Shown piece after piece: positions 12,966 through 37,358 of a stretch of 64,000 nucleotides of DNA (its first letter is position 1; the number at the start of each line of letters is the position of its first letter). Source of the stretch: Parahoeflea halophila (lineage in GTDB: Bacteria; Pseudomonadota; Alphaproteobacteria; Rhizobiales; Rhizobiaceae); NCBI RefSeq assembly GCF_900220985.1, contig NZ_OCPC01000002.1:558001-622000 (forward strand), in the 5' to 3' direction. The translations under genes and the position numbers were made by a program. The notes under the pieces were generated by a model that saw nothing but the letters and a program-made list of their open reading frames with translations, did no database searches and was not told where the DNA came from.

Positions 12966-13982
12966 TCACATGACCTGCAACCCGAGTGCCCCAATATAGA
13001 CCACCAGCAGGCCAGTGCTTTCCCAGCCGATGCCCCGGCGTTCCCGGTAGATCAGCCCGAGGCTCAGGATTGCGGTCATCAGCATGGCCACGGTCAACCA
13101 GAACAGGTCATCCGCGGTGATCGCGTGATAGAGCGAGCCGTCCCTGTAGCCGATGTCCGAGAGCGTCAGGAAAAGCGTGTCGAAGGTATTGCCGCCGATG
13201 ATCCCGCCGACCGCCAGTTGCAACGCCCCGCGTCGCACCGCGACCAGCGTCGTCACCAGTTCCGGCAAGGAGGTCAGCACGGCAGTCATCGTCGCTCCTA
13301 CCACGGTGTCGGACAACTCCAGCCGGTCCGAGATTTCCGCCGCGATCCGGGCCACACTCCAGCCGGCCAGAGCCATGAGCACCAGCAGGGCAAGGAACGG
13401 TAGAACCAGGCTGTATGCGGATTTCTCGGCCTCGCGGTCGTCCTCGGGCCTGTCGGCGCGCGTGTCGGGGGTGGTCACCGGGTGCCACATCGGTTCCTCG
13501 CGCAACCGGGCCGTGGCCCGCATCCCAAGCACGTAAATGATGAAAAGCGCGATGCTGGCCGGGTGAATGCCCCAGACAGCAATCTCGGGAGCGGTGAAAG
13601 CCATCAGCGGCACGGTCAGCAAAAGCAACAGTAACCCGGCCTGGAAAACATTCGCTAGATCCGCCGCCGCATGTTCCAGATTGGCCCGGCGGTAGATCAT
13701 GTCCGCCACGGCCAGGAATGCTGTTTGCGCAGCGATCCCGCCGATGCCATTTGAAAAGGCAAGAGAGGCCCGCCCGTCCAGTGCCGATGTCAGCGAGACC
13801 ACCGTTCCCGACATCGACGTGGCCGCGCCGAGGAGTGCCGCTCCAACCAGAGCTTCACCCAGCCCCGTGCGGTCGGCGATCTGGTCGCTGAGCCCGGTCA
13901 TCCGGTAGCCGGAGACAAGAATGACTAGCCCGGCGAGGCCGCCGAGCGCGAAGAGGACCGAGGTGGAAAGGCTTGCGAACAT
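12966..13982 (-). CDS. Sodium/calcium-exchanger-family (CaCA) cation antiporter
   Basis: 338-residue membrane protein with two inverted five-helix halves, as in YrbG/CaxA-type antiporters. The second alpha repeat is canonical: VVGATMTAVLTSLPELVTTL, with GGNTFDT in the following helix. The first alpha repeat reads LVGAALLGAATSMSGTVVSL and lacks the Glu normally found in GTSxPE, which should change ion specificity or stoichiometry. It is divergent from the dehydrogenase/oxidase operon across a 130-bp gap. It may exchange Ca2+, K+ or another cation; the sequence does not settle which. Confidence 0.82.
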   Translation of the reverse strand: MFASLSTSVLFALGGLAGLVILVSGYRMTGLSDQIADRTGLGEALVGAALLGAATSMSGTVVSLTSALDGRASLAFSNGIGGIAAQTAFLAVADMIYRRANLEHAAADLANVFQAGLLLLLLTVPLMAFTAPEIAVWGIHPASIALFIIYVLGMRATARLREEPMWHPVTTPDTRADRPEDDREAEKSAYSLVLPFLALLVLMALAGWSVARIAAEISDRLELSDTVVGATMTAVLTSLPELVTTLVAVRRGALQLAVGGIIGGNTFDTLFLTLSDIGYRDGSLYHAITADDLFWLTVAMLMTAILSLGLIYRERRGIGWESTGLLVVYIGALGLQVM

Positions 13983-14053
13983 GCTTGCTTAACGCGGACC
14001 GGCACCGGTTTGTTCGGAGGAAACTGAATTGTTTACGAAACTTGGGGAACCAT

Positions 14054-14069
14054 ACGGAAAGTTTTCCGT
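14054..14069. promoter_or_regulatory. Palindromic candidate operator upstream of the dehydrogenase/oxidase operon
   Basis: ACGGAAA-GT-TTTCCGT, two perfect 7-base arms around a 2-base spacer, lies in the divergent 130-bp interval, 44-59 bases before the start of the first gene of the oxidase operon. It could bind a dimeric regulator of both divergent units. Symmetry is seen; function is inferred. Confidence 0.4.
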
Positions 14070-14112
14070 TGAGATCGCATCACGTGAAAGAACACAGCCG
14101 GAGCGGAAAGCT

Positions 14113-14799
14113 ATGGCAAAACGCTTTTCTCGCCGGGCCGTTTTGGCCCAGATTGCCGTAGGCGCCGGCGTCGCCGGGTTTGGTTTTCCAATCCCGCACG
14201 CTTATTCCGCTAGCGACGATCGGCCGTGGGCTTTCTTCACCGACGACGAGGCCCGCTGGATCGCCGCGGTGGTCGACGTTTTCATCCCCCAGGACGAGTT
14301 CCCATCCGCCTCGCAGGCCGGGGTCGTGGATTTCATAGACAATCAGATGGCCACCCAATACGGTGAGGGTGACGGGCTCTACCTCGAGCCGCCCTTTCCC
14401 GCCGGAGTGCCGGAACAGGGCTACCAGCTGGAATTCACGCCTGCGCAACTCTTGCGCCAAGGCATCGAACAAGCGCGCCAACTGGGCGAGATCGCGACCA
14501 TGGACGCCACTGCCCGCGCCGCGCATGTCGAGGAATTGCACCAGCGCGAAGGCATCACCAGCGTCTTGATAGCGGAGATCTGGAAACTGACCAGGCAGGG
14601 CTATTTCGCCGACCCGATCTACCTGGGCAACCACGATTACGCCGGCTGGCGTATGGTCGGTTTTCCCGGAGCGCATGCCTATTACACCGAACGGGTAGAC
14701 GAGCATCGGCGCTCCGTCACGCCCCCGCCGCGTGGTATCGCGCATGACAGGGGCGGCTCGCCTTTCCCGCCGCGCGCAATCCGCGGAGGGGCTGAATGA
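14113..14799 (+). CDS. Gluconate 2-dehydrogenase subunit 3 family protein (Tat-exported)
   Basis: 228-residue small subunit of a membrane-bound flavin dehydrogenase. The N-terminus has a twin-arginine signal, FSRRAVLAQ (RR at residues 7-8), followed by a hydrophobic stretch and an Ala-rich cleavage region. In this family the small subunit carries the catalytic flavoprotein through the Tat system. The body contains FFTDDEARWIAAVVDVFIP, typical of the family. The ATG at 14113 is chosen because it places the Tat motif correctly. Its stop overlaps the start of the GMC gene by four bases. Confidence 0.88.
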   Translation: MAKRFSRRAVLAQIAVGAGVAGFGFPIPHAYSASDDRPWAFFTDDEARWIAAVVDVFIPQDEFPSASQAGVVDFIDNQMATQYGEGDGLYLEPPFPAGVPEQGYQLEFTPAQLLRQGIEQARQLGEIATMDATARAAHVEELHQREGITSVLIAEIWKLTRQGYFADPIYLGNHDYAGWRMVGFPGAHAYYTERVDEHRRSVTPPPRGIAHDRGGSPFPPRAIRGGAE

Positions 14800-16580
14800 T
14801 GGTCAAAACTCTGCCCAGGACGGACGTGCTCATTATCGGCGCTGGTTGGACGGGCCTTACGGCAGCCTACGAACTGGCCCATGCCGGCCAGCGCTGTGTC
14901 GTGCTGGAACGTGGCAGGAAGCGCCACACCGCCACGTCCTTTTCAGCACCGGAGGAGCATGACGAACTGAAATACGCGCATCGCTACGCGCACATGATGG
15001 ACGTCAAGAAAGAGACCCTGACCATCCGCAATAACCGCGACCAGCAGGCGCTGCCGATGCGCCGCCTTGGGTCTTTTCTGCCTGGATCCGGGCTCGGAGG
15101 CGCCGGCATCCACTGGAATGGCCAGTTATGGCGGCCCCTGCCGTCCGACCTGCAAATGCGCAGCCACTATGAAGAGCGTTACGGAAAGGACTTCATCGGC
15201 CCCGAGCTCAGCGTACAGGACTGGGGGGTGACCTATGAGGAGCTTGAGCCGCACCTCGATTTCTTCGAGCGGATTTGCGGAGCGGCCGGTCAGGCGGGTA
15301 ACCTGGGTGGCGAGGCCCGACCCGGGGGCAATGTCTTTGAAGGACCGCGCAGTGCGGATTACCCCAATCCGCCGATGCGCCAGCCCGTATCCAACACGCT
15401 CTTCGGTGAGGCCGCCGCACGCATGGGTCTGAACCCTTTCCCGATGCCTTCAGCCAATGTCACCCGCGCCTATGAGAACCCCTACGGCGCACAGTTGCAT
15501 CCCTGCACCTATTGCGGGTTCTGCGAGCGGTTCGGCTGCGGATATTACGCCAAGGCCGACCCGATCATTTGCGTCTACGACCGGATCAAGGATCACGAGA
15601 ACTTCGAGATCCGCTTCGACGCGCAGGTGCTGCGCATCGAGAAAAGTGCTGATGGAAAGACCGCGACCGGGGCGATCTACCTTGATGAGAACGGCGAGGA
15701 AATGTTCCAGCCCGCCAACACCATCTGCATGTGCGCCTATGCGCTGTGGAACGTGCACTTGATGCTGGTCTCGGGCCTGGGAAAACCCTATGACCCCAAG
15801 ACCCGCACCGGCGTAGTCGGGCGCAACTACAGCTACCAGACCGTGGCCGGGGTCGATGCCTTCTTCGACCGGACGGTGGAGACCGATCCCTATATGGGCG
15901 CCGGCGCGCTCGGGGTGGTAATCGACGACTTCAACGGCGACAATTTCGACCACAGCGAGCTGGGCTTCGTGGGCGGCGGCTATATCGCCTGCAAGCAATA
16001 CCATGGCCGGCCGATCGGGTATCAGCCGGTGCCCGAGGGCACGCCAAAATGGGGGGCGGAGTGGAAACGCGCGGTGCGCGAGAATTACAACCACCACGCC
16101 GACCTGGTGGTGCATGGCTCGTCGGTGTCGACGCCAGAAAATTATCTCGACCTCGACCCCACCTGGACCGACGCCTATGGCCGGCCGCTGTTGCGTATGA
16201 CCTTCGACTTCCCCGAGAACGACCGCAAGATGTCGGATTTCATGATGCAGCGCGCCATGGAGGTGGCCCGCGAGATGGACAACGTGACCTCTGTCAGCGG
16301 CACCAATCTCGCCGCGGTGGACAAGCACTATGACATCGTCCCCTACCAGACCACGCACAACGTCGGCGGTGCGGTGATCGGCACCAATCCGCAAACCAGC
16401 GTGGTCAACCGCTATGGCCAGATGTGGGATCATCACAACGTCTTTGTCTTCGGCGCATGCCTGTTCCCGCAGAACCTCGGATACAACCCCACGGGTCCGC
16501 TTATGGGGCTCGCGTACTGGACGCTGGATCACATGAAACGCGACTACCTGCCCAACCCTGCCCCTCTGATGGACGCCTGA
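14796..16580 (+). CDS. GMC-family flavin dehydrogenase (large subunit, sugar or polyol dehydrogenase type)
   Basis: 594 residues. The FAD-binding Rossmann motif DVLIIGAGWTGLTAAYELA is at the N-terminus, with the acidic end of the second strand (VLERG). The C-terminal GMC region has PYQTTHNVGGAVIGTNP and NPTGPLMGLAYW, including the catalytic-type His/Asn positions. Four cysteines at residues 237, 240, 243 and 248 (CTYCGFCERFGC) form a compact cluster-like motif, reminiscent of the iron-sulfur segment of three-subunit bacterial FAD-glucose dehydrogenases. It lacks its own signal and is presumably co-exported with subunit 3. Electrons should pass to the cytochromes encoded next. The substrate is probably a sugar, polyol or sugar acid. 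Confidence 0.9.
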   Translation: MMVKTLPRTDVLIIGAGWTGLTAAYELAHAGQRCVVLERGRKRHTATSFSAPEEHDELKYAHRYAHMMDVKKETLTIRNNRDQQALPMRRLGSFLPGSGLGGAGIHWNGQLWRPLPSDLQMRSHYEERYGKDFIGPELSVQDWGVTYEELEPHLDFFERICGAAGQAGNLGGEARPGGNVFEGPRSADYPNPPMRQPVSNTLFGEAAARMGLNPFPMPSANVTRAYENPYGAQLHPCTYCGFCERFGCGYYAKADPIICVYDRIKDHENFEIRFDAQVLRIEKSADGKTATGAIYLDENGEEMFQPANTICMCAYALWNVHLMLVSGLGKPYDPKTRTGVVGRNYSYQTVAGVDAFFDRTVETDPYMGAGALGVVIDDFNGDNFDHSELGFVGGGYIACKQYHGRPIGYQPVPEGTPKWGAEWKRAVRENYNHHADLVVHGSSVSTPENYLDLDPTWTDAYGRPLLRMTFDFPENDRKMSDFMMQRAMEVAREMDNVTSVSGTNLAAVDKHYDIVPYQTTHNVGGAVIGTNPQTSVVNRYGQMWDHHNVFVFGACLFPQNLGYNPTGPLMGLAYWTLDHMKRDYLPNPAPLMDA

Positions 16581-27827: not shown

Positions 27828-27842
27828 ATGGCGGAGAGAGAG
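27828..27842. repeat. Distal attachment site (att) of the tRNA-Ser island
   Basis: ATGGCGGAGAGAGAG is an exact 15-bp direct copy of the 3' end of the tRNA-Ser(GGA) gene, including its CCA, found at 36863-36877. The island between them lies on the 3' side of the tRNA, as expected for tyrosine-recombinase integration. DNA composition changes abruptly just to the right of this copy. Confidence 0.85.
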
Positions 27843-27905
27843 TCTTTAGAATTATCTAATTAATTATTTGATATATAACGAAAAAAATATCTGCAAACAA
27901 AATTG

Positions 27906-27924
27906 TACCACAAAAAATACCACA
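27906..27924 (+). promoter_or_regulatory. Paired TACCACA sites, candidate integrase arm-binding sites (left end)
   Basis: TACCACA occurs at 27906-27912 and again at 27918-27924, a 12-bp spacing. The same heptamer pair with the same 12-bp spacing lies at the other end of the island. Such repeated arm-type sites inside both ends are typical of lambda-type integrases. Role is inferred from position and spacing. Confidence 0.65.
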
Positions 27925-28022
27925 CCAACCTTAAAGTTGACCCACCACCTAATTGTCGACAATTCTCTGTCGGCACTGGAACTCGCTCCGCATGCAATTC
28001 TGCCCGCTAGGGCAAATTCCAG

Positions 28023-29693
28023 CTAAATAAATCTATGCGCTTGACGACGGACGTTGGGGTGTACAAACCCACTGTTCAGCGGTGAGATCAAATATGAGTT
28101 GATTATGACAAGATCTTGGGCGTCGCTCAGCTGATTTGCAACGTCGGCAAACGTCTCGTACCGCAAATTTACGTTACATCCCTTGACGACTACCACCGCC
28201 GGCAGATTGCCTTCAAATGCATGCGCGACGAACACGACAGTAAAGGACCAGTCGGCCAGTGGCGCTATTGTTTGTAGTTCCTCTTCCCGTGCCGCCAGTA
28301 CGTACGCAAATGAGTCAAGATGGTCCATAACGTATGGTCTGGATAAGCGTCCCCCATGAGATTCGTAAGCAATGATCTGAGGATGCGGACGTACCGGAAG
28401 CTCAAACTCGATGTCGCCAAGCTTCTTCCGAAACGTGTTTGCGGCGAAAACGGAGTCTCCTATCCCTTTCGCAGACCAGTGAGCAGCCGTAGGATGGAGT
28501 TTTAGGCCAAAACAGTCCACCAGCCTTTGCTCAAGTATGCCTGTAGTAGAGCTATTCCCTGCACCGATTGCCGTGAGGAGGCTGACGGCTTGGGCGTGGG
28601 AAAGTGCGGGTATGAGTAGAGGAAGTACACCGTCATTCCGCTCCGATTCCACTCGAATGTAACGATGCAGTAGGCCTCTGATCTGAGCGGCCAGTTCGTC
28701 CTTTACCAGAGATCCAAGGTTTTCAATCGTTTCGAGAATGTTAGCAAGGGCTGTTGCCGACCGGAGATGATCTGTCCTGCCTGTTACCCATACACTATCA
28801 AATCTAAGCGTAGCCTTTGCATTGTTCAAGAATGCATTTCGGGCCACAGGTATTCCCGCTGCAATATACTGCTCCGTAAGCCAGTCTGCTATTTGGCCAC
28901 GCGGCTTAAATTCGTAAGCGTAGGTGACCGCGTGATCGAATTTGGCCTGTATAATAAGTTGGTAGTGAAGCAGAAGAAGGTAGGGAGCATGAATATCGTT
29001 GACGAAAAGGTCATTAAGCCAGACGGTGAATTCGCCTTTGCATCCAAGACTATCAGCAATTTCGGCTACACGGTCTATGCTTCCTACTATGCTCAGGTCA
29101 CCAAGAAGCTCAGGCTCAGCCTCTGTATCTTCTGCATATATGCCGCTAGCCGTAGGCAGATCAAGGACAGGCGCAGTGCCTATCTTCGTCAGGATGGCAT
29201 GCACAGCTCTCCAGTTGAGTGAGAAGCGATTGTCTCTAACTGTAATGAGACGACTTATCTCAGACGCGGTCATCTTCTCTTCCACCGCCAGGCGAGCAAT
29301 CATACCAACGTGAGATAGAATCTGACGGGCCGCATCATGCGGTAGGAGGTGATTGTTGATCAAGGTGGATTGAAGGTCGAAGAAATTCACTGAGGCGAGC
29401 CTTGCGGCGTCGCTATAAGCTGAGCCGTTCGGGCCAACAACGCTGTCGAACATGTAGGTGACGGGGTCACGGGTCGGGTCAAAGAGCAAGTTGCGAACGA
29501 AGTTGTTGAACACGGGCGTTGGCGAACCAGATCTCTTCCATTGACGAAGTTGGAGGTTAATCCAATTTGCCTTACCATCCGCTACACCAATTGCGTCAAG
29601 ACTGCGGCTCACTTCGGCTAGAAACTCTATCTCGCGAGCAGAGACAACCGGTAACAGCATACTTCGAATCGCTGCGCGTACTTCATAACTCAT
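28023..29693 (-). CDS. Putative restriction endonuclease of the C-protein R-M system (unrecognised family)
   Basis: 556 residues, no family recognised with certainty. The call rests on context: its ATG overlaps the stop of a controller-protein gene, and a cytosine-5 methyltransferase is encoded divergently, exactly the layout of C-regulated type II systems. The N-terminal part looks helical. In the C-terminal part, KKLGDIEFELP (Asp427, Glu429) is followed by IIAYESHGG (Glu444, His446), which could be a variant PD-(D/E)xK core with ExH in place of ExK. DNA is AT-richer than the flanking chromosome. Recognition site and cleavage activity cannot be deduced. Confidence 0.6.
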   Translation of the reverse strand: MSYEVRAAIRSMLLPVVSAREIEFLAEVSRSLDAIGVADGKANWINLQLRQWKRSGSPTPVFNNFVRNLLFDPTRDPVTYMFDSVVGPNGSAYSDAARLASVNFFDLQSTLINNHLLPHDAARQILSHVGMIARLAVEEKMTASEISRLITVRDNRFSLNWRAVHAILTKIGTAPVLDLPTASGIYAEDTEAEPELLGDLSIVGSIDRVAEIADSLGCKGEFTVWLNDLFVNDIHAPYLLLLHYQLIIQAKFDHAVTYAYEFKPRGQIADWLTEQYIAAGIPVARNAFLNNAKATLRFDSVWVTGRTDHLRSATALANILETIENLGSLVKDELAAQIRGLLHRYIRVESERNDGVLPLLIPALSHAQAVSLLTAIGAGNSSTTGILEQRLVDCFGLKLHPTAAHWSAKGIGDSVFAANTFRKKLGDIEFELPVRPHPQIIAYESHGGRLSRPYVMDHLDSFAYVLAAREEELQTIAPLADWSFTVVFVAHAFEGNLPAVVVVKGCNVNLRYETFADVANQLSDAQDLVIINSYLISPLNSGFVHPNVRRQAHRFI

Positions 29694-29917
29694 GAGGCAC
29701 CTACGAACAGTTCTTCCACCCTGACACCCAGAGCAGAAGCAACTTTTTCAACGGATACTAGTGAAGGGTTTCTAACTCCGCGCTCGCACCCGCTTACGTA
29801 CGTTCGGTCGAGGCCACTCTTAAGCGCAAGCTCCTCCTGCGACATGCCGGCCTTAGATCGCAGCCGTTTGAGGTTGCGGGCAAATGTCTGCACAAGAAAT
29901 GAATCCAATGACTCCAT
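29690..29917 (-). CDS. Controller (C) protein, XRE-family HTH regulator
   Basis: 75-residue single-domain HTH protein: LKRLRSKAGMSQEELALKSG, then LDRTYVSGCERGVRNPSL, a textbook XRE helix-turn-helix as in C proteins of restriction systems. It would bind the double C-box 24-50 bp upstream of its own start, activating itself and the downstream nuclease gene at low dose and repressing at high dose, so that methylation precedes restriction in a new host. It overlaps the nuclease gene by four bases. Confidence 0.9.
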   Translation of the reverse strand: MESLDSFLVQTFARNLKRLRSKAGMSQEELALKSGLDRTYVSGCERGVRNPSLVSVEKVASALGVRVEELFVGAS

Positions 29918-29941
29918 GCGTCGATCGGTAGTGTCTTTGCA

Positions 29942-29967
29942 GACTATAAGTCTACGGACTATGAGTC
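29942..29967. promoter_or_regulatory. Double C-box operator of the restriction-modification system
   Basis: GACTATAAGTC at 29942-29952 and GACTATGAGTC at 29957-29967, separated by TACG. Both have the GACT-N3-AGTC form described for C-protein operators. They occupy the divergent promoter region between the C/R operon and the methyltransferase gene. The tandem arrangement matches the high- and low-affinity sites of known C systems. Confidence 0.85.
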
Positions 29968-30043
29968 ACATGAGGCTAGATTTGTCTTGCTCATTGGGCT
30001 ATCCGTGACATTCCGACTTTGCCGAACCACCGAGAGGATACAT

Positions 30044-31144
30044 ATGCAGGACCGTCGCAACGCATTTTCTGCTGTATCGCTGTTCTCTGGTGCCGGGGGC
30101 ATGGATGTTGGATTTGCACGGGCGGGATTCAACATCCTCTTGGCAAACGACATCGATGCAGACGCCTGTGCTACATATAGACTCAATCATCCAGGAGAGA
30201 TCGCAAGGGGCAACCTGCTTGACCTTGATACACGGAAGAGGACAGGCGAAACACCAATCGATCTTGTTTTTGGTGGTCCGCCCTGTCAAGGCTTCTCAGT
30301 GGCTGGGAAGATGGACCCCGATGACGTGCGTAGTCAACTCATCCACTCCTTCATGGACGTGGTTGACGTATTGAAGCCAAGGGCATTCGTTTGCGAAAAT
30401 GTCAAAGCACTCGCGGTACTCACGAAGTGGGGTGGTGTGCGAGAAGCCCTTCTTGCACGCGCACGGGAATCTTACCGTGTTGCAATCGTCGTACTAAATG
30501 CAACGGAGTTTGGCGTTCCGCAAATCAGGGAAAGGATGTTTTTGGTTGGCCTGCGCAAGAATGAATTCTTGGGCAGTGATGATAACCTCCGGTCTTTCAT
30601 TGAGGCTGAACTACTCGCGCAGAAATCGACCCCTAAGACAATTGCAGAGGTTGTGCGTTCTTTGGGACCTGCAGGGTCGAAATCAAACTCCCGTACGTGC
30701 GCAGCAAAGATTACGTTCGCCCGTAGCCCAATTATGCGGAAGTCGCCGTACGCAGGAATGCTGTTTAATGGTGCCGGTCGGCCGCTGCCATCTAACAAAT
30801 GGGCAACGACACTCCCAGCCTCAATGGGGGGCAATAAAACCCCCATAGTCGATGAGGCGGAGATTTTTGATGGCCAACCGAGCTATGTTGAGGAGTACCA
30901 CCGACACCTCATGGCAGGCGGAAAGCCGCGCACTGGCAATGCGCCTGCTCGTCTTAGACGCCTGACAGTTGATGAGTGTATAGCAATACAGACGTTCCCG
31001 GAGCAGTACAGCTTGGCAGGATCGCGTAGTGCTCAATACCGGCAACTTGGAAACGCTGTGCCGCCCAATTTAGCAGAGGCCGTTGCCCGTGTTGTGGCCC
31101 AAGGCCTGAGCGGTGGCTTCGCACTTCCCTTAGCAGCGGAGTAA
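30044..31144 (+). CDS. DNA (cytosine-5-)-methyltransferase
   Basis: 366-residue modification enzyme of the R-M system. All main m5C motifs are present: I FSGAGGMDVGF, IV GGPPCQGFS with catalytic Cys81, VI CENV (119-120), VIII QIRERMFLVG (Q160, R162, R164), and X QYRQLGNAVPPNLAEAV. The ATG at 30044 is chosen because GAGAGG lies 6-11 bases upstream and the reading frame then begins shortly before motif I. The target recognition region (about residues 180-300) is short and gives no clear prediction of the methylated site. Confidence 0.93.
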   Translation: MQDRRNAFSAVSLFSGAGGMDVGFARAGFNILLANDIDADACATYRLNHPGEIARGNLLDLDTRKRTGETPIDLVFGGPPCQGFSVAGKMDPDDVRSQLIHSFMDVVDVLKPRAFVCENVKALAVLTKWGGVREALLARARESYRVAIVVLNATEFGVPQIRERMFLVGLRKNEFLGSDDNLRSFIEAELLAQKSTPKTIAEVVRSLGPAGSKSNSRTCAAKITFARSPIMRKSPYAGMLFNGAGRPLPSNKWATTLPASMGGNKTPIVDEAEIFDGQPSYVEEYHRHLMAGGKPRTGNAPARLRRLTVDECIAIQTFPEQYSLAGSRSAQYRQLGNAVPPNLAEAVARVVAQGLSGGFALPLAAE

Positions 31145-31368
31145 CCTCTCACTCGACAGCACGCTGCACCGCAATGGCCCTCGCTCCTCAAATAGATGGC
31201 GGTCTGGTCCAGCGATCAGCGATCCAAAGTTACTAATCTCCGTCGGACAAGCAGATCGATTGATACAGCCAGCTTCGGGATGGGGTCTAGCAATTTCCAA
31301 AAGGAACCTTGCGTAATCAAAAGCCGTCTTAGTAAGCTTGAAAGGCCAGCTGCTGCAGCGTGACCTGG

Positions 31369-32364
31369 TCAACGCTCTATGATCTCGCGCAGCTCGTCTT
31401 CATGCTGGTTGACCAGCCAGCCATAGTAATTTTCGGTCGGAGGCTTCGGTTTCAGGCCGCGCTTCTTCCGCTTTTCGTTCTCCGCGCCCAGTGCCTCGGC
31501 CCGGCGCAGGCTGTTGCCGACATTGTACAAGGTCGCTGTCAGCCCGGGATTTCCGGAAATGTCGAATCCGGCCAGGTCCCGGTAGTTCTCGATCGATTCG
31601 GCAATCGACGCCGCCATGTAGGCCAAGGTGGAATCCGGCTCCATGATCGCCTTGTAGACTTCGGCGGCATTGCCGGCATCGAGTTTTCTCAGCCTTGAAA
31701 CCTTGTTGACGCGATCCGTGTGCATGAGGGCCGTCAGCGGGTTGAGCTGGCCCAGCCCGAAGGTCTGCCCGGCATAGAATGGCTGGAAGAACACCGCGCC
31801 GAACCGGTCGTCCGGGAAGGAGTCGCCGGATACCTTCTTGCCGCGAAAGGTCTTTTCCCAGACTTCCTCGCGGCAGGTCCACAGCTCGGCCGAGCCTAAA
31901 TTTTCCTTGCAGTTCTCGAACTCGGGACGTTTGACGAAATCGAGAACGCTTTCGCCATCATACTCGAAGCGAAACCTCTCTCCGGCATAGGAGATGGCCT
32001 TGACGTAATAGGTTTGAAGCCGGTCATAGGCATCGACATTGTAGGTGTGCTCGCCGACCAGTGCCCCGACGATGTGAATCGGGTCGATCTTGTACGCCTT
32101 CGAAACCGACCGGATTTTCCGCCGGAGCTTGGCGTCGTCGGCGATCAGATCGCGGATCTTTTCGTATTTCGCATCGAACGTCGACTTGGTCGCCTCGGTG
32201 CGGCGCTTGGATGCACCCGGTATGTCGGGCTGGCGGGCGTTGCGGTTGCCCTTAGGAACCGGTTCGGCCGAGTAGGTCGGCGGCACGGCGGCAAAGCTCA
32301 AGGTGAATGCGATCGTCATCGCTATCACGGTATTGAGCTTTGAGCTGGGCATTATCATGGTCAT
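31369..32364 (-). CDS. DUF1402 family exported protein, lysozyme-like
   Basis: 331 residues from the ATG at 32364; starts further upstream are possible, and no strong ribosome site separates them. A signal peptide runs to about residue 32 (ending PPTYSAEP). The body has IVGALVGEHTYN, FGLGQLNPLTALM and ATLYNVGNSLRRA, which together resemble the Glu, GLMQI and AYNxG motifs of lytic transglycosylases. The family is known from rhizobia without a proven activity. It lies inside the mapped island but has GC-rich, chromosome-like composition, so it may have been captured from a related host. A cell-wall role is inference. Confidence 0.78.
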   Translation of the reverse strand: MTMIMPSSKLNTVIAMTIAFTLSFAAVPPTYSAEPVPKGNRNARQPDIPGASKRRTEATKSTFDAKYEKIRDLIADDAKLRRKIRSVSKAYKIDPIHIVGALVGEHTYNVDAYDRLQTYYVKAISYAGERFRFEYDGESVLDFVKRPEFENCKENLGSAELWTCREEVWEKTFRGKKVSGDSFPDDRFGAVFFQPFYAGQTFGLGQLNPLTALMHTDRVNKVSRLRKLDAGNAAEVYKAIMEPDSTLAYMAASIAESIENYRDLAGFDISGNPGLTATLYNVGNSLRRAEALGAENEKRKKRGLKPKPPTENYYGWLVNQHEDELREIIER

Positions 32365-32618
32365 TTTCAACGGTGCGTTACCTAGTCTGGGGAGCGGCCT
32401 GCGGCCAAATCTGTTCTTAACCGACATGTCCCAATTAGAGCGCCCATTGCGTGACCTTGGCAACCACAAGGGGTTCGATCAAGGCCTTGTGCGGCACGGC
32501 CTAACCGTCGCTGCGTCGCCAACTCGGGTCTGGCGGATTTTTGGCGTCAGTGGATTCGCTTGTTTTACCTTTAGTCCATTGGAGGTCCTCTTGCATAGAC
32601 CTGTCGATCCGCTTTCCT

Positions 32619-33647
32619 CTAGCGCCTCATATTGCGGATCAATTCCATTTGCCGCTCGGTTGTGACAGGCAGGTATGAATTAATGGTGGTGGCGACTTTC
32701 TCATGCCCCAAATTCATTGACCAAGCCTTGAACGCTTCGGGGTTCGGACAAACGTCACTCCCATAATGCGTCAGGGTTTTGCGAAAGGCATGGGGGGTAT
32801 ATTGCGGCATCTGGACGGCGGCAAAAGCGGCGCGGATGATCGTGTTCAGCTTGGCAGCATTGGAATAGCCTTCTCGCGCCAACCCCAGATTGGCAAAGCC
32901 GTGCCCGTCAACCACACCCACCTTCGCCTTGGGGAACAAAGCATCCTCTGGACCAAACAGTTTGACCTCGCTTAAATAAGTCACCCAAGCCGCGAGACAG
33001 TTGCGATAGGCGGCATCGACCGGGAAGAACTGACAATGGATCGCTTTGGCCGCTTTCGTGTTCACCTCGCGGGCGTCTTGGAATACATGGCCAAGGTCAA
33101 TATTCACATGCTTGAGCTTAAGTGATGCCACGGCACCATCCCTAGCGCCAGTCAACATAAAGAACGCAAACAGCGCCTTGTCGCGTTTCTGGAACTCAGT
33201 CTCGAATGGCATCGCCTGAAACGCATGGGCGGCTTGCTGCATTGAAGGGTAGGGGATTTGGCGCTGTGTATGCGCCACCCGCCCCGCCTTTAGGGTGTTG
33301 TTGAAATATTCCACATCGGCATAGGTCAGCACCCGTTTGAACCCAGGACGGCTGACTAGCCAGTGAAAAAAGCCTTTGACCAAGCGCAAAGTGGAATCCA
33401 CGGTCGAAAACCCCAGGGGCTTACCCGTTTTGACGTTCTTCTGCTTGCCCAGAAAATCCTTGAAATCTGCCGCCTGTTGCCGATGGAACTTTTTGAAGGG
33501 CTTGAATTTGGTGCTTTCCTCAAATCGCCGGATTGCCGCCCGCGCTTTGTCAATCGACGCATCGTCCTGGCCTTTTGCATGACGCAAATAGGTGGCGTAG
33601 TCGTGCTTGATCCGCTCGTTCTCTTCAAGATATCGGGGCATTGTCAT
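32619..33647 (-). CDS. Tyrosine recombinase / site-specific integrase
   Basis: 342 residues with the full catalytic set: Arg169 in LTGARDGAVAS, His286 and Arg289 in PHAFRKTL, His315 in LGHEKVATT and the nucleophile Tyr325 in TINSYLPV. An N-terminal core-binding SAM-like domain occupies residues 10-100. It is the second recombinase of the island, far from either end. It is followed on the 5' side by HTH genes of the same strand. It could serve excision, a nested element, or inversion. Confidence 0.9.
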   Translation of the reverse strand: MTMPRYLEENERIKHDYATYLRHAKGQDDASIDKARAAIRRFEESTKFKPFKKFHRQQAADFKDFLGKQKNVKTGKPLGFSTVDSTLRLVKGFFHWLVSRPGFKRVLTYADVEYFNNTLKAGRVAHTQRQIPYPSMQQAAHAFQAMPFETEFQKRDKALFAFFMLTGARDGAVASLKLKHVNIDLGHVFQDAREVNTKAAKAIHCQFFPVDAAYRNCLAAWVTYLSEVKLFGPEDALFPKAKVGVVDGHGFANLGLAREGYSNAAKLNTIIRAAFAAVQMPQYTPHAFRKTLTHYGSDVCPNPEAFKAWSMNLGHEKVATTINSYLPVTTERQMELIRNMRR

Positions 33648-33749
33648 TCATCCTTGTATCGCTGCGTATAGGCCCGCTTTGACCATTAAATCCACCTGAT
33701 TCAGAGGGTGGGTGGAAGTTATGCTTCACGCTAGGTTTGACAGGTTCCT

Positions 33750-34175
33750 TTAGGGTCTTTTCCTATCGCGTGTTTCGATGGTCAGGATTGGGGTCAATTC
33801 TGCGCAAAGGCTCGGGCTGGCGAACTTGCCACATGCCCCTTGGCAGACCTCACACAGCGCCTCCAATCTACCCCGCGTTGCGGTGTAGGGCAGATAGTCA
33901 GCCATGCCACCATAGGCCGACCGGGGGGCGTTACAGGCCATGCAAAGGAATTGATCCCGCGCCAAATGGCGTTTGGATTTTTTGGACCTGTTGTTGAGAA
34001 AATCTTTAAGTGCAAAACCCAAGATCAAATGCGGCTTTTGGCTGTCTAAAACGACAAGCCCAGATTGCCGCCACAACCGTATTGTCTGCACTGAAACGCC
34101 CAGCAGATGCGCCGCCTGCTCATAAGTGTACTGGCTATGGATTTTGACTTTGCGCGATGAAGCGCGCTTGACCAT
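33750..34175 (-). CDS. HTH protein with a putative zinc-binding segment
   Basis: 141 residues. The N-terminal part reads YTYEQAAHLLGVSVQTIRLW, a MerR/excisionase-like winged helix. The C-terminal part has two CxxC pairs, CMAC and CEVC, about 38 residues apart, that could bind zinc. It overlaps the stop of the next upstream gene by one base and precedes the recombinase gene, so it may be its directionality or regulatory factor. Confidence 0.75.
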   Translation of the reverse strand: MVKRASSRKVKIHSQYTYEQAAHLLGVSVQTIRLWRQSGLVVLDSQKPHLILGFALKDFLNNRSKKSKRHLARDQFLCMACNAPRSAYGGMADYLPYTATRGRLEALCEVCQGACGKFASPSLCAELTPILTIETRDRKRP

Positions 34176-34387
34176 CAGGTGCGGCCATCTTTGCCGGGAT
34201 CAACCCGGCTTGCCTCTGCCCAAGCGTTCAGGTCAGCGCCGCGATAGATGATCTTGCGACCAAGGCGGTAAAACGCTGGCCCCATGTTTTTATGCCGCCA
34301 TTGGGCAAGTTTGTCGCGGTCACCGATGATTTCAAGCTCAGGGTCGCCAAGAACATAGTTCCGGCTTTGCTCGAATATGCTTTCCAT
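34175..34387 (-). CDS. Small excisionase-like HTH protein
   Basis: 70 residues. The segment LAQWRHKNMGPAFYRLGRKIIYRGADLNAWAE follows the pattern of AlpA/excisionase-type helix-turn-helix proteins, which typically read a fixed residue set around PPFxKxGRxVRY. It is cotranscribed with the HTH/zinc protein and the second recombinase. Likely a recombination directionality factor or a repressor. Confidence 0.75.
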   Translation of the reverse strand: MESIFEQSRNYVLGDPELEIIGDRDKLAQWRHKNMGPAFYRLGRKIIYRGADLNAWAEASRVDPGKDGRT

Positions 34388-34509
34388 ACTTTCACCCTTG
34401 TACGATTGCGTAGGTGAGAAGTATGTGTCGTTCGCTTGGTTCGGATAAGGCTGAAATCAGCCCGAAAAGCCCGCCGCATATGTCGCCTATAATGCCCATT
34501 GAGGGCTAT

Positions 34510-35529
34510 CTAATTTTGGGCATAAACCAAGTTCAGTTCTTTGTTCAAGTTCCGTTGGACAGAGCTGCGGCTTGGAGACTTTCCTAGTTCTTTTTCCGCG
34601 TATGCAATCAGTTCGTAGATGCAGCTTTCTTTGGTATTTGGAGCCAAGCCACCTTCAACCAAATTCGCCAAGTGCTCTCTTAGGTCACCCCAGTTAACCT
34701 CGTGAGGACGCCCACGCTTGCGTCTAGCGGCTGGTCTATCCGTGTTCGACGAAACAAAGAAAGAGCCGAACTGCCCCAAAGTCACAGGTTTCGGCTTTGG
34801 GAGCAGGAACTCCCTGTGCTTCAGAACATGATCCGTACGAACTCTGAGCGCGGCAAAATTTCTCGCTCCAATTTTGATCTTGTTCTGTTTCCAGTCAAAG
34901 TTAAGAGGGATGGACGATGCCATAATCAATTCAAATTGTGCAGCCTCTTCAAATTCTTCTCGCTCAACACAATTATCCCAGCGGTCGAAATCAATCGCGG
35001 TACATTCTATTTCACCGTTTGCCAGCAATTGAAAAAGCTTGGCCCAGGCTACTTCAAAGTGGATCCGGAACTGAGCCTCAGTGCTGTCGACAATCGCTTG
35101 AAGCGGCTCCAACTCCGCAAACAGTTTTCGACATCTTTCGGCTTCTTCTTCCCAGAGATTGAATGACGTGCCGTCATCTCTTTCCACCATGACGGATTCT
35201 TTTGCCTCATATTCTGAGATCTTGGCGGGAAGCTCGCGCACATCCTGCATGAAGCATTTTTCAGCGGCTCCAAAATATTCTTCGTCAACGGGAATACCCA
35301 GCGATTCAAATTCCGGCCTTTCAAACCATGGGATTACAAATGACGGTTCTAGGTCATCAGGCATTTCGCGCCAATAAAAACGGTAGTCTACTCGCTCATA
35401 TGAATGGCGGTCTTCTGTCCATTCTGCCTGAGGTACGCGCCCCAATGCAGCCCACTCAACCGCCTCAGAAACAAAGCAATGTGTCGGCAACTCTACAGAG
35501 GTCAGAAAAGTAATGCTCTCCTCAACCAA
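34510..35529 (-). CDS. Hypothetical island protein with C-terminal HTH-like region
   Basis: 339 residues, function not recognised. The first 230 residues are acidic and rich in aromatic residues (for example YRFYWREMPDDLEPSFV). The last 75 begin with a basic linker (AARRKRGRP) followed by LAPNTKESCIYELIAYAEKE, then a helical SSVQRNLNKEL segment that looks like a DNA-binding domain. It overlaps the end of the adjacent tRNA-linked integrase gene, so the two may be cotranscribed. A regulatory role in the element is possible. Confidence 0.65.
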   Translation of the reverse strand: MVEESITFLTSVELPTHCFVSEAVEWAALGRVPQAEWTEDRHSYERVDYRFYWREMPDDLEPSFVIPWFERPEFESLGIPVDEEYFGAAEKCFMQDVRELPAKISEYEAKESVMVERDDGTSFNLWEEEAERCRKLFAELEPLQAIVDSTEAQFRIHFEVAWAKLFQLLANGEIECTAIDFDRWDNCVEREEFEEAAQFELIMASSIPLNFDWKQNKIKIGARNFAALRVRTDHVLKHREFLLPKPKPVTLGQFGSFFVSSNTDRPAARRKRGRPHEVNWGDLREHLANLVEGGLAPNTKESCIYELIAYAEKELGKSPSRSSVQRNLNKELNLVYAQN

Positions 35530-36715
35530 TTCTCACGACCTTTCCGCTATCGCCGCAGACAAACCCCGACCAGCGCGCCATCAACAATCGCCGCTTTTCC
35601 AACAAATCTGACCGCGCATAGGCTCGCTCCACATCGGAGCCAACTTTATGCGCCAAGCTCATTTCTGCAACCTCGCGCGGGGCGCTTGCTGCTTCTGAGG
35701 CCCAATCGCGGAATGTGGACCTGAACCCATGCACGGTGACTTCTTCAACCTGCATTCGGCGCAAAAGCATCAGCATGGCCATATTCGACAAAGGCTTGTG
35801 CCGTTTCTGTCCTTCAAACACATAATCAGATTGCATTGCGCGCAAGGGTTCGATGATTGCTAGCATTTCATCGGTTAAGGGAACTCGGTGTAAAACGCCG
35901 CCTTTCATACGCTCGGCAGGACAGAGCCAAAGCCGCGCCCCAAAATCTATTTCTTCCCAGCGCATACCCAAAACCTCGCCTGTGCGTGATCCGGTCAGGC
36001 AAGTGAACATCAGCGCCTTTGCCGCCATTGCTTCGCGAGTTTTCAAATCAGTATAGAAGGTGGGTACGTCCTGCCACTTCATCGCCTTATGGTGTTTTGG
36101 CTTGGGCTTCACCTTTGGCAAAACTTGCGCATCGTGAATGGCAGTTACCGGGTTTTCTCCCGACCGAAAGCCCTTGGACTTGGCTACGTCCAAAATGATT
36201 TTGACCCGTTGCGCTAAACGTCGCGCGGTTTCTTGCTTTTCCGTCCAGATTGGTGAGAGACACATCAGCACCTCTGGCTGGCCAATGCTATCCACGGGCA
36301 TCCGCCCGATCTTGGGAAAGGCATAGTCGCGTAAGGTGTTAATCCATTGCGCCCCGTGCTTGGCATTCTTCCAAGTCGGCATTCTGTCAATATGAACTTG
36401 TTGAGCAACTTCCTGAAAAGTGGGTATCTCACGGCTGGCATTAAATCTTGGATTCAAGCCCTGCTTTGCCATCCGTCGATATTCCAGCGCCCGTTCGCGC
36501 GCTTGGTTAAGCGTCACAACATCCGAGCCGCCCAAGCCAAAGTCCGTTCTAAGTGGCGCACCCTTAGTATTCCTCTGGCCCTTGACCACCACCCGCACAA
36601 TCCACCGGCGCGCGCCAGATGGATCAACAACCAAATACAGCCCGCCACCATCTCCGTGCCGCCCAGCGCCAAGATTCTCCACCAGCTTCTTAGTCAGCTT
36701 GCCCGTGAGTGCCAT
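35522..36715 (-). CDS. tRNA-linked tyrosine recombinase (integrase, P4/DUF4102 type)
   Basis: 397 residues. The N-terminal arm-binding domain starts with ALTGKLTKKLVENLGAGRH and GGLYLVVDPSG, typical of P4-like integrases. Catalytic residues: Arg244 (LTGSRTGEVLG), His329 and Arg332 (VHGFRSTFRDWA), His356 (LAHKVG) and Tyr366 (VERAYARSD). The ATG at 36715 is chosen because the conserved domain starts there. It ends 150 bp from the tRNA-Ser gene, the normal place for an integrase next to its attachment site. Two TACCACA sites overlap its promoter region, suggesting autoregulation by binding to arm sites. Confidence 0.93.
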   Translation of the reverse strand: MALTGKLTKKLVENLGAGRHGDGGGLYLVVDPSGARRWIVRVVVKGQRNTKGAPLRTDFGLGGSDVVTLNQARERALEYRRMAKQGLNPRFNASREIPTFQEVAQQVHIDRMPTWKNAKHGAQWINTLRDYAFPKIGRMPVDSIGQPEVLMCLSPIWTEKQETARRLAQRVKIILDVAKSKGFRSGENPVTAIHDAQVLPKVKPKPKHHKAMKWQDVPTFYTDLKTREAMAAKALMFTCLTGSRTGEVLGMRWEEIDFGARLWLCPAERMKGGVLHRVPLTDEMLAIIEPLRAMQSDYVFEGQKRHKPLSNMAMLMLLRRMQVEEVTVHGFRSTFRDWASEAASAPREVAEMSLAHKVGSDVERAYARSDLLEKRRLLMARWSGFVCGDSGKVVRIG

Positions 36716-36721
36716 TGAATA

Positions 36722-36740
36722 TACCACACTTCGTACCACA
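36722..36740 (+). promoter_or_regulatory. Paired TACCACA sites, candidate integrase arm-binding sites (right end)
   Basis: TACCACA at 36722-36728 and 36734-36740, spaced 12 bp, in the same orientation and spacing as the pair at 27906-27924. They lie 7-25 bases upstream of the integrase start, so integrase binding here could also repress its own gene. Confidence 0.65.
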
Positions 36741-36862
36741 CAAGGAAAGAGTACAAGCGCAATCGAAAGAAATCCAGCGTAATCACAATCTGCAAATAAA
36801 CTCAATAAAACAAAGAAAAAGGGCCGCTAAGGCGACCCGTTCAAATCGTCAAAAATGGGGTG

Positions 36863-36877
36863 ATGGCGGAGAGAGAG
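36863..36877. repeat. tRNA-proximal attachment site (att)
   Basis: 15-bp repeat ATGGCGGAGAGAGAG overlapping the 3' end of tRNA-Ser, identical to 27828-27842. Integration restores the tRNA end, so the gene remains intact. Confidence 0.85.
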
Positions 36878-36953
36878 GGATTCGAACCCTCGAGACGGTT
36901 TCCCGCCTACACACTTTCCAGGCGTGCGCCTTCGACCACTCGGCCACCTCTCC
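36864..36953 (-). tRNA. tRNA-Ser (GGA)
   Basis: A 90-base class II tRNA read on the minus strand. Acceptor GGAGAGG pairs with TCTCTCC; discriminator G and encoded CCA follow. The anticodon stem CACGC/GTGTG encloses loop CTGGAAA with anticodon GGA (codon UCC). A long variable arm (TAGGCGGGAAACCGTCTC) and the T loop GGTTCGAATCC are evident. It is the integration site of the island. Confidence 0.96.
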
Positions 36954-37358
36954 GCATATCCGTGTTTCGGGCAAGTACCCGGCCATGCCGGCCGCCTTGA
37001 AGGCGGTCGCCCTGCCGCTGGAAGCTGATGACGACGCATCAGGTTTCACCGGTCCGGATCGGGCGGCACTATAGTCAAGACGCTTGCCTTGGCAACCGCT
37101 ATTTCAGGCTTTGTGACGACTATTTTGCTGCCGGCCCGGGCTGTTGCCGCCAACAACATCGCCGCGCATCCAATCGGAGGCGCAAAGGTTGCTGCAACAC
37201 CATGAAATGATGCATGTATGGTACCGTCCAAATTGTTCCGTTTGAACGCGACATGCATTGGCCATTGCATCAATGATTTTGCCTCTCTATGTCACGGGTC
37301 TGGGCAGGGCTTCCGGTCAACGGACCGCTCAGGCACACCTATCTGGCTGGAGGGCTGC

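Follow-up and report, generated by a model that had tools for sequence, protein, structure and literature searches.

A tRNA-Ser island with a restriction-modification system in Parahoeflea halophila, and the family of small two-recombinase elements to which it probably belongs

Results

The island and its borders

The DNA examined was a 64,000-nt stretch of the genome of Parahoeflea halophila (assembly GCF_900220985.1, contig NZ_OCPC01000002.1, positions 558,001-622,000), called the window throughout; coordinates given without a locus number are positions in it. The sequence confirms the presence, at a tRNA-Ser(GGA) gene, of a genomic island of about 9 kb which bears a restriction-modification (RM) system. 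Its putative attachment features are as follows.

36864-36953, minus strand: tRNA-Ser(GGA), the integration target, located by ARAGORN
36863-36877, plus strand: tRNA-side attachment core, ATGGCGGAGAGAGAG, copy 1 of 2 in the genome
27828-27842, plus strand: distal attachment core, ATGGCGGAGAGAGAG, a copy of the tRNA-Ser 3' end, copy 2 of 2 in the genome
36722-36740, plus strand: tRNA-proximal TACCACA pair, arm-type sites, one of two such places in the genome
27906-27924, plus strand: distal TACCACA pair, arm-type sites, 12-bp spacing, the other of the two places

An initial annotation of the window had described the island as fully mapped. Four signs were offered: an exact repeat of the tRNA-Ser 3' end at 27828-27842, equally spaced TACCACA heptamer pairs at both ends, a shift in composition, and an integrase abutting the tRNA. 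Each of the four was borne out. The 15-bp core consists of the final 14 bases of the tRNA-Ser gene and one more base; exactly two copies of it exist in the 4,185,998-base genome, and none of its reversed control. TACCACA-N5-TACCACA is likewise found only twice genome-wide, once at each island border, with no match for the control. The GC content is approximately 50-58% across 28-37 kb and approximately 59-68% in nearly all other 1-kb intervals. The start of the integrase gene, at 36715, is oriented toward the tRNA. The locus therefore has what is looked for in a tRNA-targeting island, ie a far border marked by a copy of the tRNA 3' end, and next to the tRNA an integrase with an arm-binding domain and putative arm sites. 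The borders as first placed are well supported; "fully" was slightly too strong, since no comparable empty site was found and a fragment of another RM system lies beyond the distal repeat.

Genes of the island

The genes considered first are those which recur in other islands, listed from the tRNA inwards, followed by the RM genes of this one. Lengths are in amino acids (aa), and HTH denotes helix-turn-helix.

35522-36715, minus strand: int, P4-type tyrosine integrase with arm-binding, central and catalytic domains (PF13356, PF22022, PF00589)
34510-35529, minus strand: the X slot, a protein of 339 aa which varies between islands and overlaps the end of int with its start
34175-34387, minus strand: HTHb, AlpA-like HTH protein, 70 aa (weak HTH_17 match)
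33750-34175, minus strand: HTHa, MerR/excisionase-like DNA-binding protein (weak HTH_17 and MerR matches, under the curated cut-off)
32619-33647, minus strand: rec2, second tyrosine recombinase (PF00589, just above the cut-off)
30044-31144, plus strand: M, m5C DNA methyltransferase, divergent from C and R (PF00145, 1.6e-61; TIGR00675, 7e-55)
29942-29967, no strand assigned: two C-box-like sites, GACTATAAGTC-N4-GACTATGAGTC with N4 = TACG, upstream of C
29690-29917, minus strand: C (controller) protein, 75 aa (PADLOC Control_protein, 6e-22; HTH_3)
28023-29693, minus strand: R, probable restriction endonuclease, 556 aa (no Pfam, NCBIfam or PHROG match)

The R, K, H-R, H and Y positions of the tyrosine-recombinase motif are invariant in 11 aligned members, and rec2 looks like an intact tyrosine recombinase. 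In distant relatives HTHa and rec2 are joined in one open reading frame (ORF). HTHa also has weak matches to terminase small subunits (E about 0.03-0.05), read here as a shared HTH, and the gene in the place of HTHb in Ruegeria conchae is annotated AlpA. X had no other match in 394 genomes of the host family; a weak relative (9e-8) occupies the same slot of island L207, and a model of the X protein alone has a predicted local distance difference test score (pLDDT) of 46.6. Among the proteins of the window island there was no match of weight to the relaxase or conjugation genes of integrative and conjugative or integrative and mobilisable elements. Matches of the C protein to MobT and TrbA models were far below the cut-offs and confined to the HTH.

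The start of R overlaps the stop of C, an arrangement seen in C-R operons. In their order R, C and M agree with a C-controlled type II RM system in which R is the putative nuclease, and the C protein is accompanied by the expected paired sites, presumably C-boxes. The C protein and the m5C methylase named by the initial annotation are well matched by the models listed above. For its "putative nuclease", the gene stands, and matches to a nuclease family or fold were not obtained. The only PADLOC match for R was at 0.028, a profile search against solved structures returned 0 matches, and a model built from a four-sequence alignment (mean pLDDT 48.6) had no Foldseek match at E<=0.001.

R is present in only one of the 394 family genomes, that of the window. 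The R-C-M trio nevertheless stays together in Pseudotabrizicola, Tropicibacter and Roseovarius (L002, L003 and L004), where it is 69-75% identical, and in all three a paired site similar to that at 29942-29967 lies between C and M. Other island genes are missing there, except for a 28%-identical integrase near the Tropicibacter trio. A Paracoccus plasmid has a further relative of R (34.8% identity), with an HTH regulator and dcm as neighbours. The initial annotation had held that cargo found elsewhere without integrases would count against the island. This applies in part, to the trio only and in three other genera, and it shows that the trio also moves alone, not that the island borders are wrong.

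Recurrence of the backbone

The order [tRNA]-int-X-HTHb-HTHa-rec2 recurs at many alphaproteobacterial tRNA genes, usually with RM genes after rec2. Relatives of rec2 were found in 34 of the 394 family genomes, its own included, and all 35 places outside its own genome were fetched and labelled (the family set). A class-wide search with a rec2 profile gave 14 of 240 genomes, again with its own, and all 16 other places were fetched (the class set, chosen by rec2 alone). HTHa accompanied rec2 in 21 of the 29 loci returned first (tblastn, E<1e-3), two of the remainder being cut by contig ends. The second recombinase, HTH proteins and 339-residue protein, listed as cargo in the initial annotation, are present as genes; rec2 and the HTH genes are not loose cargo but part of a recurrent backbone.

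Nine islands of the family set have the arrangement [tRNA]-int-X-HTHa-rec2 at tRNA-Leu(CAG), and others are at Arg, Thr and Ser tRNAs; some of its rec2 loci lack a tRNA or an int within the stretch fetched. In the class set the backbone lies near Leu, Thr, Ser, Ala, Phe, Glu, Gly, Gln and SeC tRNAs and transfer-messenger RNA (tmRNA), only some of which are supported as targets by repeats. Repeat-delimited islands occur at Leu, Thr, Ser, Ala and Arg tRNAs and at tmRNA. The 21 delimited in this way measure 6.9-13.7 kb (median 9.2, mean 9.36, standard deviation (SD) 1.33). The smallest, L210 (6.9 kb), has an imperfect repeat and no RM genes, and the largest, L156 (13.7 kb), has type I RM genes and a 45-bp repeat. 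In the family set the RM genes in the slot after rec2 are of type I, II, IIG or III. The window has the full backbone, with genes in an RM layout after rec2, as proposed here for the two-recombinase family.

Several further arrangements were seen. At L141, L208, L209 and L213 int occupies the tRNA-distal end or sits across the RM genes, so the backbone can be inverted relative to its target. On the megaplasmid of Ruegeria sp. TM1040 (L222, 7847-18984) genes for AlpA, an HTH regulator, an HTH-rec2-type integrase and type I RM proteins stand in a row. At L170 (3813-7196) a Cas9-like gene (HNH, RuvC_III and Cas9 alpha-lobe) directly follows an HTH-rec2 fusion. Plasmid records gave four rec2 matches, one of them from Legionella adelaidensis at 28%, and IMG/VR gave nine loci, of which eight were labelled and three of these have RM genes after rec2.

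Slot exchange between related islands

The nearest relative, L205 (its genome listed only as "same class" as that of the window, and apparently outside its order), is 91% identical in int, 89% in rec2, 80% in HTHa and 79% in HTHb, and it strengthens the initial description of a tRNA-Ser island of about 9 kb with RM genes. Its target is the same tRNA-Ser(GGA), and its distal repeat, TGGCGGAGAGAGGGG, follows the tRNA variant of its own host, not that of the window. Its TACCACA pair is exact at the distal end and has one mismatch on the tRNA side, with the same 12-bp spacing. DNA similarity to the window is confined to 32635-34391 (82%), 35578-36956 (80%) and the matching distal core and arms. 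X is different in L205, and the place of the C-controlled type II system of the window is taken by type III genes.

Two other pairs, L142/L145 and L143/L150, have likewise kept the tRNA-int and HTH-rec2 blocks and about 100-190 bp of the far end, and differ in the X and RM slots. Similarity between sister islands stops 16 to approximately 103 bp inside the 3' end of rec2. On a quick rec2 tree of 25 typed rows, the RM type, as assigned by our reading of the gene labels, changes at least 11 times. These comparisons show reassortment of backbones and cargo, the X and RM slots differing while att-int, HTH-rec2 and the distal attachment (att) end are retained. The stretch after rec2 and the distal end shared no consistent repeat across the 13 islands compared. 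In four of them (L150, L151, L153 and L205) the score in one orientation was 1-3 points higher than that of the best among 40 shuffles, the sequences involved being short and different from one another.

RM genes after rec2

The family set holds 25 places of the split type, ie with HTHa and rec2 in separate ORFs, the division from fused types being set by ORF lengths. Of these 21 were testable: 12 have RM genes, two have fragments only (L149 and L157) and none were seen in seven. The class set has 15 testable places among its 16, with RM genes at 11 and without at four, L211 being one of the four and having an HsdR-like fragment. Dropped before counting were L146, L162, L165 and L176, where contigs end within about 1.5 kb after rec2, L218 (contig ending within an AAA ATPase ORF), and ten fused HTH-rec2 loci (L159, L160 and L168-L175). 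The cargo of the fused loci was partly scanned; an HsdR-like gene was seen in L168 and Cas9 in L170. At loci scored as having no RM genes some, not all, of the nearby ORFs were scanned by Pfam.

The controls were 20 loci totalling 377 kb, 13 of them tRNA-Ser neighbourhoods and seven around int relatives without rec2. One control locus (L053) had an RM match, a methylase, and the count was the same at the stricter phmmer threshold and at that used for the cases. None of the seven int loci, whose integrases are 45-51% identical to int, had an RM-query match, and none of ten ORFs scanned there was an RM gene. Fisher's test gives p = 1.3e-5 for 23/36 against 1/20, and p = 3.3e-5 for the class set alone (11/15), values which are indicative only, the loci being related to each other and the RM queries drawn from family-set islands. 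In 20 of the 23 loci the RM genes begin within about 330 bp of the rec2 stop.

The DUF1402 gene and the history of the site

One further gene sits between rec2 and the RM genes of the window.

31369-32358, minus strand: DUF1402 gene, duplicate of a gene common in the host family (PF07182, 2.2e-143)

Its inclusion in the gene list of the initial annotation is confirmed. A DUF1402 gene was found in 51 of 61 family genomes searched. The genome of the window has two copies with 83% aa identity, the other being at 366585-367565 of contig C3 (genome G000), and that of the island is the extra one. DNA similarity of the island copy to those at two chromosomal places covers the gene and little beyond. 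None of the other islands examined had a DUF1402 label, and the gene is for that reason regarded as a likely passenger. The protein has GLGQLNPLTAL and TLYNVGN stretches resembling those of lytic transglycosylases, and the family may be a cell-wall enzyme.

The msrA side of tRNA-Ser matches the window in all 11 genus loci compared, and the opposite side does not. No counterpart of the left flank of the island was found beside tRNA-Ser in 13 relatives, one of which (L050) extends just 3.7 kb beyond the tRNA. A DNA search with 9.8 kb of the left flank in 18 genus genomes (its own included) returned, outside its own genome, only dispersed homologous genes. Matches of 1.7-3.1 kb in two relatives were considered as synteny and rejected, as they are to tandem paralogues with 38-48% protein identity. 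The check for an empty site proposed with the initial annotation accordingly gave a matching msrA side, no counterpart for the left flank, and no clean joined site among the 13 relatives. GCCCCTCGGGGC directly follows tRNA-Ser in five of these (L045, L046, L049, L054 and, with one mismatch, L055) and is not present beyond the distal core of the window.

Just beyond that core, the segment 27654-27802 matches, at 82% identity, a stretch of a Paracoccus seriniphilus plasmid where a NucS-domain gene meets hsdS within a type I RM operon. The fragment is a scar of another RM system at the tRNA-Ser site, which accordingly had earlier occupants or rearrangements. In one relative (G013; L048, 1907-10911) a separate island with other cargo has an identical 15-bp core 8.9 kb from its tRNA-Ser. 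The int of that island is 45% identical and reads toward the tRNA, and a fused HTH-rec2 gene lies beyond, at 13460-15082.

Discussion

The island in the window is very probably a member of a family of small alphaproteobacterial integrative elements, with a recurrent backbone and a cargo slot which is usually filled by RM genes. What is new is the family, a two-recombinase, RM-carrying island with apparently exchangeable slots. Several observations weigh against this interpretation. An empty site was seen in none of the 13 relatives compared, and some distal repeats are short or imperfect (L210, L142, L148, L151, L152 and L153). RM queries taken from family-set islands favour the cases, and related loci are not independent. 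No RM genes beyond fragments (L149, L157 and L211) were seen at 13 of the 36 testable rec2 loci, and on a Ruegeria conchae plasmid the backbone (int, AlpA, HTHa and rec2) comes with no RM genes. The mod gene of L141 and the res gene of L205 are both broken into two ORFs, no nuclease was recognised beside the methylase-specificity protein of L207, and an int-only control locus (L106) has a C-protein-like HTH gene. Because of the loci and the plasmid without them, RM genes are to be regarded as usual and not obligatory, and not all of the 23 RM loci need be working, as some may be incomplete.

The anatomy of the island, together with that of L205, suggests how it would operate. The 15-bp core is most likely where Int joins a circular form of the island to the 3' end of tRNA-Ser(GGA), the TACCACA pairs serving as arm sites. 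The AlpA-like HTHb and excisionase-like HTHa probably regulate int and rec2, or excision. For rec2 the likeliest role is that of an accessory or former integrase which helps excision or integration, an assignment we regard as about evenly balanced. RM systems defend their hosts and make their own loss costly; that of the island, with R as the presumed nuclease, should do the same and so make loss of the island costly.

A nested structure has also to be considered, in which an HTHa-rec2 element, with the RM genes, lies inside an int island and rec2 integrates its own element. A distant rec2 clade (10 rows, 99% support) consists mostly of HTH-rec2 fusions, and in seven of the nine members searched for tRNAs a tRNA-Ser is adjacent. 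In those seven (L160, L166, L167, L168, L171, L172 and L174; not L169 or L170) no int match was labelled. From this clade, rec2 would seem to be a relative of a tRNA-Ser integrase. Three more fused loci outside the clade (L159, L173 and L175) have int, and no tRNA in the stretch. The partnership of int and rec2 also varies, the nine tRNA-Leu islands being 25-28% identical to the window in int and 42-46% in rec2. However, int, X, the HTH genes and rec2 stand in one order at most sites examined, with exceptions such as L213, no consistent repeats surround the cargo block after rec2 in the 13 islands compared, and L205 has retained int and HTH-rec2 together at 80-82% DNA identity. Nesting is accordingly unlikely.

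A bolder proposal is that these islands, mostly of about 9 kb and spread over alphaproteobacterial orders and many tRNAs, are dedicated to the horizontal delivery of RM systems. A recombinase or a phage would assist in refilling their slots with RM systems of types I, II, IIG, ISP and III, and the islands might be moved in helper-phage particles. In this strong form the proposal is unlikely. More modestly, the rec2/RM island family is a candidate vehicle for the spread of RM systems.

If the island were a phage satellite, a genome of about 9 kb would be packaged in a helper capsid and the RM genes would act against competitors. The AlpA-like gene and P4-type integrase are shared with satellites, no transfer genes were seen in scans of the window island, and the median size of the 21 delimited islands is 9.2 kb. 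The available part of one report also describes a comparable RM-bearing island moved by a jumbo phage (PMC12595487). The sizes are, however, not tight (6.9-13.7 kb, SD 1.3 kb), and the largest island, L156, has a strong 45-bp repeat; L163 has just 0.7 kb or so from rec2 to its distal end. The window island proteins scanned gave no match of weight to capsid, terminase or primase, and the rec2 of the window had no match in 50,697 phage records. A satellite is therefore improbable.

We consider it more improbable again that this is an ordinary one-off tRNA-Ser island with mixed cargo, and that the link between rec2 and RM genes reflects a general habit of RM genes near integrases. Islands with defence cargo at tRNA and tmRNA genes are known (PMC12595487, as far as the available part of that paper goes), and the R-C-M trio travels without rec2 in L002, L003 and L004. 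Against this are the RM genes at 23 of 36 testable rec2 loci and one of 20 controls, their absence from the matches at int relatives without rec2, and the conservation of whole blocks at the DNA level in L205 and other island pairs. Least credible is an integron-like, site-specific exchange of cargo driven by rec2 at the slot after its own gene, which would fit the closeness of RM genes to the rec2 stop and the end of sister-island similarity just inside rec2, but not the lack of a consistent repeat between the stretch after rec2 and the distal end in the 13 islands compared, nor the X slot, which differs too though not adjacent to rec2, homologous recombination in the constant blocks explaining both.

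The family reading, by comparison, gives a concrete and widespread small element which has RM genes as its usual cargo and switches their type between close backbones. It opens three questions to testing: the way in which RM systems travel, the function of the second recombinase, and the possible carriage of the islands by phages.

Comparison with known systems

The RM genes of the window resemble the PvuII type of C-controlled system in the overlapping C-R operon, the divergent M and the paired C-boxes upstream of C. They differ in R, which is a protein of 556 aa with no detectable nuclease family. P4-like satellites and phage-inducible chromosomal islands are similar to the window island in their P4-type integrase, AlpA-like regulator, defence cargo and small size; the window island differs in having no primase, capsid or packaging gene match.

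The closest published counterparts are the Pseudomonas tmRNA islands I23, I44 and I55, whose phage-defence cargo includes type II RM systems; I55 is moved by a jumbo phage and benefits from its type II RM system (PMC12595487). According to the available part of that report, they share with the present islands insertion at a tmRNA 3' end, a direct repeat (14 bp in theirs), a tyrosine integrase, AlpA, defence cargo and the lack of recognised genes for autonomous transfer. In the same part they are described with one named integrase, intY, a shared region of approximately 18 kb, shared YqaJ, RadC and Gp2-like genes, and mixed cargo. The present family, by contrast, has a second recombinase, rec2, with HTHa, a smaller size and RM genes as its usual cargo.

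No title or abstract found in a search of open-access literature, supplementary files being outside its scope, described a two-recombinase RM island family, and the available parts of PMC8989522 and PMC11476347 contain nothing resembling one. Oliveira et al. (2014) found RM systems to be rare in plasmids and prophages, and complete RM systems to move more often autonomously or in small elements (PMC4176335). Such small elements are not named in the available part of that paper (PMC4176335), and the present family is a concrete candidate for them.

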